DNA of 64,000 nt from Nocardioides sp. IC4_145 (GTDB lineage Bacteria; Actinomycetota; Actinomycetes; Propionibacteriales; Nocardioidaceae), in contig NZ_JAANMS010000005.1 of assembly GCF_011250565.1 (NCBI RefSeq), positions 62,001 to 126,000 of the forward strand, given 5' to 3'. A program made the translations under genes and the position numbers. Shown here one piece after another: positions 409 through 56,734 of this stretch (positions are counted from its first letter, which is position 1; every line of letters begins with the position of its first letter). The notes below the pieces were generated by a model. That model did no database searches. It worked only from the letters and a program-made list of their open reading frames with translations, and was not told the origin of the DNA.

Positions 409-1523
409 GCGGGGACCCGCTCGGTGGCGGCGATGGTGGCCGAGCCGACGACCCGCGTGCCGTCGTAGACGACGACGGCCTGGCCGGGGGCGATGCCGTA
501 CGCCGGGTCGAGCAGCTCGACCTCCACCTGGGTGTCGGGGCCGTCGGGCGTGACGACGACGCGGGCGCGGTGCTCGTCGCCGTGGGCGCGCAGCTGGACG
601 GTCACGCCCGGCCCCTCGAGGGTGCCGGGCACCGTGCCGCACCAGCGCGGGCGGATGCCGCGCAGGCCGGTCACGGCGAGCCGCTCGCGCGGGCCGACGC
701 GGACGGTGCCTGCGACCGGCTCGATGTCGAGGACGAAGCGCGGCTTGCCGTCCGGTGCGGGCGTGCCGATCCGCAGCCCCTTGCGCTGGCCGATCGTGTA
801 GCCGTAGGTCCCGCCGTGCTGTCCGAGCACCTCGCCGGTCGCGTCGTCGACGATGTCGCCGCCGTGGTTGGGGGCGCGGTCGCCGAGCTTCTCGCGCAGC
901 CAGCCGGCGTTGTCGCCGTCGGCGACGAAGCAGATGTCGTGGCTGTCGGGCTTGTCCGCGACGAGCAGCCCACGGCGGGCCGCCTCCACGCGCACGAGCG
1001 CCTTGGGGGTGTCGCCGAGGGGGAAGAGCGAGTGCCGCAGCTGCTCCTGGTCGAGCACGCCGAGCACGTAGGACTGGTCCTTGCCGCCGTCGACCGCGCG
1101 GTGCATCTCGACCAGGCCGTCGGCGCCGGTGCGCAGCTGCGCGTAGTGCCCGGTCGCCACCGCGTCGAACCCGAGGGCGAGCGCCCGGTCGAGCACCGCG
1201 GCGAACTTGATCTTCTCGTTGCACCGCAGGCACGGGTTGGGCGTGCGCCCGGCGGCGTACTCGTCCATGAAGTCCTCGACCACGTCCTCGTGGAACCGGT
1301 CGCTCATGTCCCAGACGTAGAACGGGATGCCGATGACGTCGGCCGCGCGGCGCGCGTCGTTGCTGTCCTCGATCGTGCAGCAGCCGCGGGCGCCGGTGCG
1401 GTACGACGCGGGGTTGCGCGAGAGGGCCAGGTGCACGCCGGTGACCTCGTGACCGGCCTCGGCGGCCCGCGCGGCGGCGACGGCGGAGTCGACGCCGCCG
1501 GACATGGCGGCGAGAACCCTCAT
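405..1523 (-). CDS. mnmA: tRNA-specific 2-thiouridylase MnmA
   Basis: A 372-residue cytoplasmic enzyme that adenylates and thiolates U34 of Lys, Glu and Gln tRNAs to give s2U. The PP-loop SGGVDS is at residues 8-13. The two catalytic cysteines lie in [12 protein letters not shown] (C101) and SHDICF (C198), and TGHY and GKDQSY tRNA/ATP motifs are also present. The length fits the family. The ATG at 1523 overlaps the iscS stop as ATGA, so the sulfur donor (cysteine desulfurase) and the thiolase are made together. The frame stays open upstream through the antisense of iscS, but homology begins at [10 protein letters not shown], which fixes the start. Confidence 0.96.
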
Positions 1524-2707
1524 GCGCGTGCGGCCCGCGCCCGCTCGACGACGGGCGCGATGGCCGCGACGACCGCGTCGACGTCCGCCGCGGTGCTGGT
1601 GTGGCCGAGCGAGAAGCGGAGCGAGTGGCGGGCGGACTCCTCGTCGCAGCCCATCGCCAGCAGCACGTGGCTGGCCTGCGGCACGCCCGCGGAGCAGGCC
1701 GAGCCGGTCGAGCACTCGATGCCGCGCGCGTCGAGCAGCATCAGCAGCGAGTCGCCCTCGCAGCCGGGGAAGCCGAGGTGGGCGTTGCCGGGGAGCCGGC
1801 CCGTCCCCGCGCCGTCGAGCGGGGATCCGTGCAGGTGGACGTCCGGCACCTCCTCGACGACGCGGCGGACCAGGTCGTCGCGGAGGGCGGAGACGCGAGC
1901 GGCGTGCTCGGCCTGGTTCTTGACCGCCAGCTCGACCGCGGCGGCGAAGCCCGCGATCGCCGGCACGTCGAGCGTGCCGCTGCGGATGTCGCGCTCCTGC
2001 CCGCCGCCGTGGACGATCGGGGTCACGCCGAGCTCGCGACGCACGACGAGCGCGCCGACGCCGCAGGGACCGCCGAGCTTGTGCCCGGTCAGCGTGAGCG
2101 CGTCGACGCCGGTGCGCGCGAAGTCGACCGGCACCTGCCCGACGGCCTGGACGGCGTCGGTGTGCACGGGGATGCCGTGCGGGCCGACGATCGCCACGAC
2201 CTCCTCGAGCGGCTGGAGGCTGCCGACCTCGTTGTTGGCCCACATCACCGAGACGACCGCGACGCTGGCAGGGTCGCGGTCGACCGAGGTCCGCAGCGCG
2301 TCGAGGTCGAGCACGCCGTGGGAGTCGACCGGGAGCAGCTCGACCTCGGCGCCCTCGTGCTCCTCGAGCCAGTGGACGGTGTCGAGCACGGCGTGGTGCT
2401 CGATCGCCGTGGTCAGCACGCGGGTGCGGCGCGGGTCGGCATCGCGGCGGGCCCAGAAGACGCCCTTGACCGCGAGGTTGTCGGCCTCGGTGCCGCCGGA
2501 GGTGAACACCACCTCGCCGGGCCGGCAGCCGACCGCCTGCGCGATCGTCTCCCGCGACTCCTCCACGACCCGGCGCGCCTGCCGGCCCGAGGCGTGCAGC
2601 GAGCTGGGGTTGCCGACCTCGAGCATCCGGGCCGTCATGGCCTCGACCGCCGCGGGGACCATCGGGGTGGTCGCGGCGTGGTCGAGGTAGACGGTCCTGC
2701 TGGTCAT
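1520..2707 (-). CDS. iscS: Cysteine desulfurase (IscS/NifS family)
   Basis: A 395-residue PLP enzyme that converts cysteine to alanine plus an enzyme persulfide. It starts [14 protein letters not shown], the family hallmark. K210 in TGHKLGGP is the PLP lysine, and C338 in STGSACSAG is the persulfide cysteine, in a loop of the IscS type. No iscU or other Fe-S assembly genes are adjacent. Coupling to mnmA suggests the main job here is sulfur supply for tRNA 2-thiolation, although wider use is likely. A TAGGCT box 9 nt before the ATG marks the probable operon promoter. The gene's 5' side abuts the large 22-bp repeat array. Confidence 0.95.
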
Positions 2708-2716
2708 GACGCCCCC

Positions 2717-2722
2717 AGCCTA
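2717..2722 (-). promoter_or_regulatory. Candidate -10 box of the iscS-mnmA operon
   Basis: TAGGCT on the minus strand, ending 9 nt before the iscS ATG. It matches the TANNNT boxes placed before other apparently leaderless genes in this window, though the spacing is 2-3 nt longer. The 22-bp repeat array begins about 20 bp upstream of it. Confidence 0.45.
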
Positions 2723-2741
2723 CGGCGCCCCCTACACCCCC

Positions 2742-3008
2742 GCCGAGGTGGCACTCCCGCAGGGCCGAGGTGGCGCTCCCGCAGGGCCGAGGTGGCGCTG
2801 GCGCAGGGCCGAGGTGGCGCTCCCGCAGGGCCGAGGTGGCGCTCCCGCAGAGACCGGACCTGCCGTCCTGCCACCCCGACCCTGCACGGGTGCCACGTCG
2901 ACCCTGCACGGGTGCCACGTCGACCCTGCACGGGTGCCACTCCGACCCTGCACGGGTGCCACTCCGACCCTGCACGGGTGCCACGTCGACCCTGCACGGG
3001 TGCCACTT
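2742..3008. repeat. Bipartite 22-bp tandem repeat array 1 (5 units forward, 6 units inverted)
   Basis: This fills almost the whole 315-bp gap between iscS and the EEP gene. Five 22-bp units begin at 2742, 2764, 2786, 2808 and 2830, with the core GAGGTGGC followed by GCAGG. After a 25-bp centre (2852-2876), six 22-bp units begin at 2877, 2899, 2921, 2943, 2965 and 2987. These are the same element in the opposite orientation (CCTGC then GCCAC). Forward units and reverse-complemented inverted units match at about 16 of 22 positions, so the whole array is a large imperfect inverted repeat. The 22-bp period is not a multiple of three and has no stops, so the open frames across it are artefacts. 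A second array with the same plan is at 56071-56325. Confidence 0.93.
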
Positions 3009-3022
3009 GGGCGGGAAGGGGG

Positions 3023-4027
3023 CTACTTGCGGGCAAGCTCGGCGACGACGGCGCGGTGGTCGGTGCCGCCGAGGGCGACGGTGCGGGCGGAGCGGGCGGC
3101 GAGGTCCTCGCCGACGAGCACGTGGTCGATCGCGACGAGCGCGGGGAGGAACCGGAGCGGGCCGAAGAGCCCGTTCTCCGGCCAGGTGGGCTGGAAGCCG
3201 GCGTTGGCGAGCTCGACCGCGTCGCGGTAGCCCGCATCGACCAGCCGCCGCAGCGGGGTGTGGTCGAGGGTCGCGTTGAGGTCGCCGACGACCAGGTCGG
3301 CGTCCGACCGCACGGCCGCCCGGCGCACGGTGCGGTGGTCGCGACGCCAGTCCGCGGCGTCCGTCGGCGCGGAGGGGTGCACCGCGAGCAGGGTCAGCCC
3401 GCCCGGTCCCCCGACGTCGACCTGGTACGACGCCAGCGGGGTGTCGAGCCGGACCGCCTCGGACAGCGGGACGCGGCTGAAGACCATCGTGCCGACGGTC
3501 GGGTCCGCCTCGGGCCGGCCGACGGAGTACGGCAGCACGTCGGCCAACCCCGCCGCGCGCATCCGTCGCAGCGCCGGCCCCGTGACCTCGTTGACCACGA
3601 GCAGGTCGGCCTGCTCGGCGCTCGCCAGCTCGACCAGCCCGAGCGCGTCACCCTCGCCCCCGAACAGGTTCGACGTGACGACCACGATCGGCTCGGCGCC
3701 GCCTGGAGCGGGCGGGTTCGGGCCGAGCCAGTACGGCGCGACCCACCAGCCGTGCGCGGCGAGGCCGGCCGCGGCGAGCACCACCGGCACGAGCCGCAGC
3801 CTGGTCCGCCACCGGGCGTGGCCGATCCCGGCGACGACCAGCGCGGCGGCGTACACCGGCAGGGCGTAGGGGACGAAGGACGTCAGCCGCACCGCCGGTC
3901 CCCAGGTGGCGTCGGTCAGCCGCAGGGTCGTGAGCACCGCCGCGGGGAGGAGCAGCAGGAGCAGGACCACCGGGCCGGCGTGGTCGCGCAGCCACCACCC
4001 GACCGCCGCGAGCGCGCGTCGGACCAC
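3023..4027 (-). CDS. Membrane-anchored endonuclease/exonuclease/phosphatase (EEP) family protein
   Basis: 334 residues with a GTG start. Three hydrophobic helices (about residues 16-37, 51-71 and 76-96) are followed by an EEP fold carrying [11 protein letters not shown] (about 118), the metal-binding Glu in [16 protein letters not shown] (Asp/Asn pair) and the terminal GTDHRAV (catalytic His). The catalytic domain should face outward after the third helix. The substrate is unknown; family members cleave phosphodiesters in nucleic acids or lipids, or phosphate esters. It lies 10 nt downstream of proB and is probably the last gene of the obg-proB run. A second EEP gene of similar architecture lies at 13239. 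Confidence 0.85.
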
Positions 4028-16819: not shown

Positions 16820-16872
16820 CCGCTCGGCTCAGGCGCCGCCGGCCTGGGGGCGAGGTGGCTCCTCGGGCGACA

Positions 16873-16958
16873 CAACCGCGCCATTGCGCTGGAATGTCGC
16901 GCCACCGGCTCAGACCGGCGCTACAACCGCGCAATTGCGCCGGAATGTCGCGCCACCG
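16873..16958. repeat. Two 36-bp direct repeats between convergent genes
   Basis: Copies at 16873-16908 and 16923-16958 differ at two positions and start 50 bp apart. Each holds a GCGC-A/C-ATTGCGC core; in the second copy GCGCAATTGCGC is a perfect palindrome. They occupy the gap between the Rv2525c-like gene and the radical SAM gene, both of which end here. Confidence 0.85.
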
Positions 16959-56070: not shown

Positions 56071-56325
56071 GCCGAGGTGGCACCCCGGCAGGGTCGAGGT
56101 GGCACTCCTGCAGGGTCGAGGTGGCACCCCCGCAGGGTCCAGGTGGCACCCCCGCAGGGTCGAGGTGGCACTCCTGCAGGATTGAGGAGGAACACCTGTG
56201 CACGTGCCACTTCCGCCCTGCGCACGTGCCACCTCGGCCCTGCGCACGTGCCACCTCGGCCCTGCGCATGCGCCACCTCGGCCCTGCGCATGCGCCACCT
56301 CGGCCCTGCGCACGCGCCGCCTCGG
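56071..56325. repeat. Bipartite 22-bp tandem repeat array 2
   Basis: This fills the gap between the pepN terminator and DUF5130, which converge here. Five 22-bp units start at 56071, 56093, 56115, 56137 and 56159 (core GAGGTGGCAC and GCAGG), then a degenerate unit at about 56181. The opposite orientation follows from a partial unit near 56203 and full units at 56216, 56238, 56260, 56282 and 56304 (CCCTGCGCA then GCCACCTCGG). Neighbouring units share variants (two ACGTG, two ATGCG, one ACGCG), which points to local duplication. It has the same plan and period as the array at 2742-3008, with different variable positions. Confidence 0.93.
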
Positions 56326-56335
56326 CGCGGGGCGG

Positions 56336-56734
56336 TCAGGCGTCGCGGGCGTGCAGCGTCTGCGGCGGGCGGGCGTGGTCGGCGAGCATGTGGATGCCGC
56401 GGACCAGGCCGCCGACGAGGTCGTCCTCGGCGAACGCCTGCTGCATGTGCAGGGCCGCGAGCTCGACCTCCTTGTCGGTGAGCGTGCGGCGCACCCACCC
56501 GCCGGTGACGATCTCGAGCGCCCGAGCGGTGGGGTCGACCAGCACCAGGATGCTGCGGGCCGGCGCGACCAGCGAGTTGTGCAGCTGGGTGGCGAACGCG
56601 CGCGGGTCGCCCTCCGCCCTACCGAGGAAGACGGAGAACTCCACGCGCGAGTGACGCTCGGCCGCGCGGATCGCCTCGTCGAGGCGGGTCCGTTGGGCCT
56701 CGGTCAGCAGCTCACCAGCGGGCACTGGCGCCAC
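56336..56734 (-). CDS. DUF5130 (TPM-like) family protein
   Basis: 132 residues. Blocks LTEAQRTRLDEAIRAAERHSRVEFSVF, LHNSLVAPARSILVLVDP and a helical C-terminus match the DUF5130 family, whose fold resembles TPM phosphatase domains. No function is known. The GTG at 56734 overlaps the upstream membrane-protein gene by 23 nt; an in-frame GTG at 56725 would shorten the overlap and cannot be excluded. Confidence 0.8.
   Translation of the reverse strand: MAPVPAGELLTEAQRTRLDEAIRAAERHSRVEFSVFLGRAEGDPRAFATQLHNSLVAPARSILVLVDPTARALEIVTGGWVRRTLTDKEVELAALHMQQAFAEDDLVGGLVRGIHMLADHARPPQTLHARDA

Follow-up and report, generated by a model that had tools for sequence, protein, structure and literature searches.

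What is the long inverted repeat, built from short tandem units, that separates iscS from its upstream neighbour in Nocardioides sp. IC4_145, and why does it stand where it does? We established by computation its anatomy, dispersal and position, its polarity in three species, its presence and absence among relatives, the homogenisation of units within its blocks and the unlikeness of its arms. The repeat, called array 1 here, is one copy of a dispersed inverted-repeat element. Each arm of the element is built from tandem copies of a unit that is specific to the lineage and measures 22 bp in this genome. Throughout, the window denotes the whole stretch of 64,000 nucleotides that was analysed, and G000 the genome under study (4.27 Mb, a draft of 103 contigs); the two genomes with which it is mainly compared, G118 and G001, are single contigs.

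Anatomy of array 1 and its place beside iscS

Five plus-strand units face seven minus-strand units in array 1 (2742-3012, by core scan). TRF reports the 22-bp unit in 5.0 copies at 2742-2850 and the inverted unit in 6.3 copies at 2869-3006, with 94% matches in both. In register, the plus units read GCCGAGGTGGCGCTCCCGCAGG or near variants of it, while the consensus of the seven inverted units, on their own strand, is GACGTGGCACCCGTGCAGGGTC. An earlier note on this DNA had described five forward units, a 25-bp centre and six inverted units; the forward block stands as described, but the centre is mostly a seventh inverted unit, 13 of 14 core letters matching at 2859-2877, so that the two blocks almost abut, in unit register. 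The note's observation that units are nearly identical within a block and differ at about 6 of 22 positions between blocks agrees with the two consensus units, which share 16 of 22 positions. The units are contiguous, without the unique spacers that alternate with identical repeats in a CRISPR array, and an Rfam scan of the window at the gathering threshold returned two tRNAs only, the arrays matching no structured RNA family. Array 1 is not a product of chance, since G000 has 59 occurrences of the exact core GAGGTGGC-N6-GCAGG and a single one of a reversed-pattern control, and shuffled gaps of the window are free of arrays (mean 0.0 over 45 gaps, three rounds).

Table 1. Coordinates of the two arrays and of the features flanking array 1 (window positions).
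Feature	Position	Strand	Basis or remark
IscS/NifS-type cysteine desulfurase gene	1520..2707	-	NCBIfam NifS 9.4e-124 and IscS models, below curated cut-offs
Gap between array 1 and iscS start, with TAGGCT box	2708..2741	-	Box ends 9 bp ahead of ATG
Array 1, forward block, five 22-bp units	2742..2851	+	Consensus GAGGTGGCGCTCCCGCAGGGCC; TRF, register, core scan
Array 1, centre, mostly innermost inverted unit, inner bases diverged	2852..2877	-	Core 2859-2877
Array 1, inverted block, six further 22-bp units	2878..3012	-	TRF, register, core scan, consensus
Upstream gene, endonuclease/exonuclease/phosphatase family	3023..4027	-	Pfam PF03372 9.5e-21; gene call
Array 2, forward block, five units	56071..56180	+	TRF, register, core scan
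Array 2, centre and inverted block, six units	56181..56326	-	TRF, register, core scan

Array 1 fills most of the gap between two co-directional minus-strand genes, its inverted block ending 10 bp short of the upstream gene's stop codon (3023) and its other edge being 34 bp from the iscS start (2707). A TA[GC]NCT box was seen by eye at the same place in all 17 iscS loci examined (L143-L159, our own locus included). The TAGGCT box here is probably a -10 element, and its distance from the ATG (Table 1) suggests a nearly leaderless iscS transcript. The sister genome G082 retains the box without any array, and the array is therefore not a required part of the iscS promoter. The earlier note's placing of the array next to the iscS promoter is corrected by this position between two co-directional genes. 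Among relatives whose IscS is 97% (G082), 94% (G121), 93% (G214) and 92% (G118) identical to that of G000, the same gap, read by eye, is 35 bp long and free of any array in G082, holds one simple hairpin directly behind the stop in G121 and a decayed half or remnant of an array in G214, and is occupied by full arrays in G118 and G000.

Dispersal in the genome and in relatives

When mismatches are permitted and the flanks inspected, G000 contains 16 arrays of at least two units, six of them with two facing blocks and ten with a single block. In G118 we counted 21 arrays at the 18 loci fetched: nine are compact two-block arrays and 12 have one block (split-pair members counted), including three pairs, six members in all, divided by 1.0-2.2 kb. 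G001, where only 1 of 24 arrays is single-block, had been picked for being a single contig in which motif searches show no GTGGC array. In a 200-kb stretch of it lie three arrays with a unit of 21 bp, GTCGAGACGTCACCCCTGCAG, similar to GTCGAGGTGGCACTCCTGCAGG of G000, and 108 tandem-pair matches of this unit were found in the genome. The further 20 sites that we used are the first 20 among the matches listed outside the 200-kb sample, a lone match at 1362176 being skipped. Nearly all arrays lie between predicted genes, and G000 and G118 have at least three sites in common (iscS, L029/L130 and L041/L137). The facing-block plan described in the earlier note recurs both in its own genome and in relatives. 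The array is not confined to one strain, one of the 21 arrays of G118 being located at the iscS site itself, nor are the units found elsewhere unrelated to it.

The second array of the window belongs to the same family and lies between converging genes for a peptidase M1 and a DUF5130/TPM-domain protein. The convergent gene at 56336 has its stop 9 bp beyond the inverted end of the array, and a separate simple hairpin of the left gene precedes the array. It is missing from the orthologous gap in G118 and G214, the two genomes covered by this comparison (the fetched stretches of G082 and G121 did not include that gap). Three motif searches, which arrays of other units could escape, returned no array in G082, G121 or G214, and since the sister G082 is without an array by the motifs searched, the family is dispensable. 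One filled and empty pair of sites (L142/L033, by eye) was seen: in G118 an array of about 78 bp lies between two stops that in G000 are 4 bp apart, with no evident target-site duplication.

Genes stand between the blocks at three G118 sites. At L140 (4251-5216) a gene between a forward and an inverted block has weak, below-cut-off matches to an MTES_1575 REase-like domain and to AbiEi antitoxin domains; at L134 (4362-5830) two copies of a 196-aa membrane-protein-like gene, alike at their starts, lie between facing blocks, and the second copy has no Pfam match at 0.001; L141 is the third such site. With weak Pfam matches at L140 and none at L134, an interpretation of the blocks as transposon ends around mobile cargo is unsupported.

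Position behind stop codons and polarity

Genes were called with our own simple codon-based finder, and the position count excludes three loci: L031 lies at the start of a contig, L035 is an isolated core match within a gene, and at L036 the called gene overlaps the array. Over G000, G118 and G001, in 67 of 88 cases (19/22, 19/27 and 29/39, respectively) the array edge lies within 15 bp of the flanking stop, overlaps included (the largest 30 bp). Gaps with arrays are convergent in 34 of 59 cases, against 40 of the 351 other adjacent gene pairs of the same loci, and this excess is found in each genome: 9/14 versus 13/131 in G000 (binomial P 1.2e-6), 9/21 versus 13/117 in G118 (P 2.2e-4) and 16/24 versus 14/103 in G001 (P 3.3e-9). 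Where the neighbours are co-directional, 17 of 20 arrays sit no more than 13 bp behind the upstream stop, though 12 to 564 bp are left to the next start; the exceptions are L131, L135 and L352. The first two of these are paralogous gene regions of G118, in each of which a gene for a short secreted-looking protein has a single-block array 100-215 bp downstream, antisense, as if gene and array had been duplicated together. The type of stop codon shows no clear difference, with TGA in 61 of 67 flush genes and in 363 of all 421 called genes.

All 38 compact two-block arrays (6 in G000, 9 in G118 and 23 in G001) have the plus block followed by the minus block, whatever the directions of the flanking genes. 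At L223 of G116 the block order is, by eye, reversed relative to GAAGTGGC, and polarity is therefore a property of each family and not of the motif across families. Position and polarity together are consistent with action on the transcript, or on the polymerase as it leaves a gene.

Turnover of the unit

When one consensus is taken per block (22 blocks of G000 and 30 of G118), positions G1, A2, 4-7 (GTGG) and A17 are invariant while the inner bases and the linker vary; conservation of the core is partly built in, the scan having detected units through their core while tolerating up to 4 of 14 mismatches. The block-wise homogenisation proposed in the earlier note is seen. Units of one block in G000 have an identity of 0.876, a value that falls to 0.702 against the opposite block of their site and to 0.761 against other sites. 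In G118 the corresponding values are 0.864, 0.710 and 0.788.

How far does the family extend? A tandem-array scan gave periods of 22, 51 and 22 bp in the window, 43 and 18 in G214, 22 in G116 and 14 and 22 in G118, with 0.0 arrays in shuffled controls. The 51-bp repeat of the window (16872-16958, 1.7 copies) lies between convergent genes; so does the 43-bp array of G214 (L261, 13322-13532), which has almost five copies, ends at a stop and is unrelated in sequence. In 15 further genomes of the genus, chosen by motif, an array passed the threshold in 29 of 30 loci. By a hand count, 22 of the 29 have an array edge that overlaps a predicted stop or is no more than 15 bp away from one. One fixed 20-kb stretch from each of 40 single-contig genomes of the genus contained nine arrays, with periods of 22, 26, 26, 30, 31, 32, 32, 41 and 53 bp, and on this evidence we gave up the view of 21-22 bp as a privileged period. 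Facing blocks are found with a 30-bp unit in a divergent gap of G012 and with a 32-bp unit in a convergent gap of G166, so that it is the facing plan, and not the 22-bp period, which recurs. With facing blocks also of 21 bp in G001, the earlier argument that a period of two helical turns would place a bound protein on one face of the helix finds no support.

Broader families were searched for and not upheld. A widespread single-hairpin founder (CGAGGTGGC-loop-GCCACCTCG) gave one to four matches in 7 of 14 genomes and hence is no common family, and a phylum-wide GTGGCNNCTCR array was present in 2 of 396 genomes. We make no claim for a broad actinobacterial family from the 54 stretches of the contig scan: its matches had been pre-selected for GARGTGGC at 22-bp spacing, and therefore only additional common letters, GARGTGGCNACTCR, hint at homology. 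These are common to units of Humibacillus, Sinomonas, Pseudonocardia and Nocardioides. Arrays of 22 bp whose unit starts with GARGTGGCNACTCR or close to it, some with facing blocks, were seen at L072, L080, L089, L090, L099, L107, L111 and L113, in Humibacillus, Pseudonocardia, Nocardioides abyssi, Sinomonas and N. daejeonensis, and it is possible that they form a wider family. Two uncultured genomes, RUG12190 and a Verrucomicrobia MAG, have dispersed 22-bp arrays that start with GARGTGGCAGGT (L071, L079, L085, L087, L093, L100, L110, L114 and L117, and L073, L074, L082, L086 and L097, respectively), a likeness possibly due to chance through the search motif. Viral contigs gave one match, whose unit has only the searched motif region in common.

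Facing arms are less alike than expected

In all three genomes the plus and minus blocks of a site resemble each other less than randomly re-paired blocks do. At unit level, facing blocks match at 15.99 of 22 positions over 6 sites of G000, compared to 16.59 when re-pairing keeps the strand and 17.08 when it is free (P 0.033 and 0.006); at 16.11 of 22 over 9 sites of G118, compared to 17.20 and 17.12 (P 0.0001 for both); and at 15.24 of 21 over 23 sites of G001, compared to 15.62 and 15.69 (P 0.0001 and <0.0001). The version based on consensus units gave strand-keeping and free P values of 0.068 and 0.013 in G000, <0.0001 and 0.0001 in G118, and 0.009 and 0.0015 in G001. The mismatch between blocks was first noticed in G000 and G118 and then repeated in G001, with the same statistics on all three. 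Facing arms are about 73% identical in the three species. G000, as a draft of many contigs, could have lost perfect palindromes in assembly, while the other two genomes are single contigs.

The 15 compact pairs of G000 and G118 all match at 15-17 of 22 positions. In the three G118 pairs whose blocks stand 1.0-2.2 kb apart, 18, 19 and 22 of 22 positions agree, as expected if only close facing arms are constrained. That core conservation stems from compensatory pairing between the arms is not supported at block level, where facing blocks show less likeness and not more. Long near-perfect palindromes are a known hazard in bacteria, and we infer that the unlikeness arises where homogenisation within each arm meets the loss of such palindromes. 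Against a simple version of palindrome loss stands G001. There the units that truly face each other match slightly better than those of the site that do not (15.44 versus 14.96 of 21, P 0.006; no such effect in G000 or G118), and the apical stem is often perfect.

Folding and the hairpin question

The earlier description of array 1 as a foldable inverted repeat is supported, as the whole array folds with z of -9.4 and -7.7 on its two strands. Six two-block arrays in all fold far better than dinucleotide shuffles (z -4.5 to -12.7, with -12.7 for array 2 and -4.5 to -10.4 for the four others), which is what any inverted repeat must show. Ten single blocks fold no better than their shuffles (z -2.0 to +3.5), and since many arrays consist of a single block, without excess structure, the hairpin is not the whole story.

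The centre of the G001 arrays is usually a distinct stem-loop, exactly 40 bp long in 16 of 23 cases, with an 18-bp stem and a 4-nt loop. Counted over these 16 centres (14 distinct rows, the seven centres of other length left out), 93.3% of cells are paired versus 88.1% in shuffles, and 15 cells are changed on both sides versus 6.0, with none of 500 shuffles as high; related sequences can exceed the shuffles of this test without any structure. By two other measures the excess is weaker, as five pairs changed on both sides were reached by 101 of 500 shuffles and 15 further pair types by 35 of 500. The paired changes could instead stem from copying between the arms.

No U-tract follows the arrays. 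Beyond the outer edges, T accounts for 34 of 300 bases over 15 sites of G000 and G118 and for 65 of 400 over 20 sites of G001, with at most three in the first eight in both sets; bases after the stem are G-rich at most edges examined. Within 2600-3150 there is no terminator-like site.

A possible role at mRNA 3' ends

What is the role of the element then? It lies mostly directly behind stop codons, often between convergent genes, and as the units of two adjacent arms point inward, a transcript leaving the gene could fold into a very long imperfect hairpin. Such a hairpin may act as 3'-end punctuation, with RNA polymerase slowed or stopped between neighbouring genes; in addition or instead, it might protect mRNA 3' ends or slow the last ribosome. 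The arms would grow and shrink by tandem duplication, and copies whose arms would make long perfect palindromes would be lost. We favour this REP/BIME-like role, played as an imperfect hairpin, over its rivals, and regard it as an evenly balanced proposition. Its mechanism is no more than moderately supported, as single blocks fold no better than shuffles, and the single-block arrays and the missing U-tract are its main difficulties.

The patchiness of the element (missing at iscS in G082, decayed in G214, array 2 missing in G118 and G214), the lineage-specific unit families in other members of the genus and the two paralogous gene regions each with an array (L131 and L135) would also suit a MITE- or minisatellite-like repeat that is neutral or selfish and is tolerated behind genes as the place of least harm. 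We consider this rather unlikely, because the arrays hug the upstream stop even when a long gap is free (17/20), avoidance of promoters explaining a part of the position but not the closeness to the stop, and because polarity is never reversed in 38 of 38 arrays; the paired changes in the G001 apical stem point the same way, though arm-to-arm copying could make them. These changes are also unneeded in a protein site, and they bear on the proposal that a putative DNA-binding protein reads the core GARGTGGC...GCAGG, the array serving as a polymerase roadblock or nucleoid organiser behind genes. Single-block arrays, which need no hairpin, and a place behind stop codons, which suits a roadblock, would be naturally explained in this way, as would core letters that are near-invariant (partly by construction of the scan) while inner bases and linker drift. 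Nevertheless, the unit is 21 bp long in G001, and facing blocks are built also from unrelated 30- and 32-bp units, which makes such a protein unlikely.

A canonical intrinsic terminator enlarged by repeats would account for the position and the hairpin, and for G121, in which a lone simple hairpin occupies the iscS site behind the stop, but with no T-run following, G-rich bases after the stem at most edges and single blocks without excess structure we find it highly improbable. Returning to the hairpin at mRNA 3' ends, we suggest, tentatively, that tandem-armed hairpins could be a new class of bacterial interspersed repeat. It would be tied to stop codons with no RAYT involved, and between lineages its unit would change in sequence and length while the plan stays fixed. 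Its arms would be held between homogenisation within each arm and selection against long perfect palindromes, and its punctuation of transcription or mRNA at 3' ends would be independent of any one unit sequence. The arrays bear on two unsettled questions, the ending of transcripts in high-GC actinobacteria where no U-tract takes part and the insulation of convergent neighbours. With a constant plan and changing sequence at gene ends, they provide dozens of natural variants for direct tests, among them the empty sites of close relatives, and the unlikeness of facing arms would be a mark, open to measurement, of palindromes being removed from natural chromosomes.

Comparison with known systems

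The arrays resemble the REP/BIME elements of enterobacteria and pseudomonads in being short, dispersed and extragenic, in forming inverted pairs (38 of 38 two-block arrays, yet 10 of the 16 G000 arrays have a single block) and in lying often near stop codons. They differ in that the arms are direct tandem arrays of 21-22-bp units. A REP is a single imperfect palindromic unit with a conserved 5' tetranucleotide. The units here are direct tandem repeats, and the ten single blocks folded have no excess structure. A RAYT-REP system was rejected, the Y1_Tnp transposase domain (PF01797), which marks RAYT, being found in 0 of 10 genomes and in 5 of 14 control genomes. MIRU minisatellites of mycobacteria are likewise tandem units dispersed at gene junctions, with longer units, and they are not known to occur as facing inverted blocks.

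For E. coli, PMC12306157 places 446 of 4,072 predicted REPs within 15 nt of a stop codon and cites earlier work in which REPs less than 16 nt from the stop codon can lower translation. An E. coli survey describes inverted repeats enriched behind stop codons, mostly intrinsic terminators (PMC6060812), and our arrays are alike in lying directly downstream of stops. Unlike intrinsic terminators, they have no U-tract, have arms of tandem units up to more than 100 bp long and exist in single-block forms. The uptake-sequence (DUS) repeats of Neisseria and Pasteurella are similarly short repeats in facing pairs, which form terminator-like hairpins (PMC2267715). Those hairpins, unlike the arrays, have no tandem arms. 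The copy number of DUS is also much higher. The open-access literature searched gave no description of such arrays, the tandem-armed form included.
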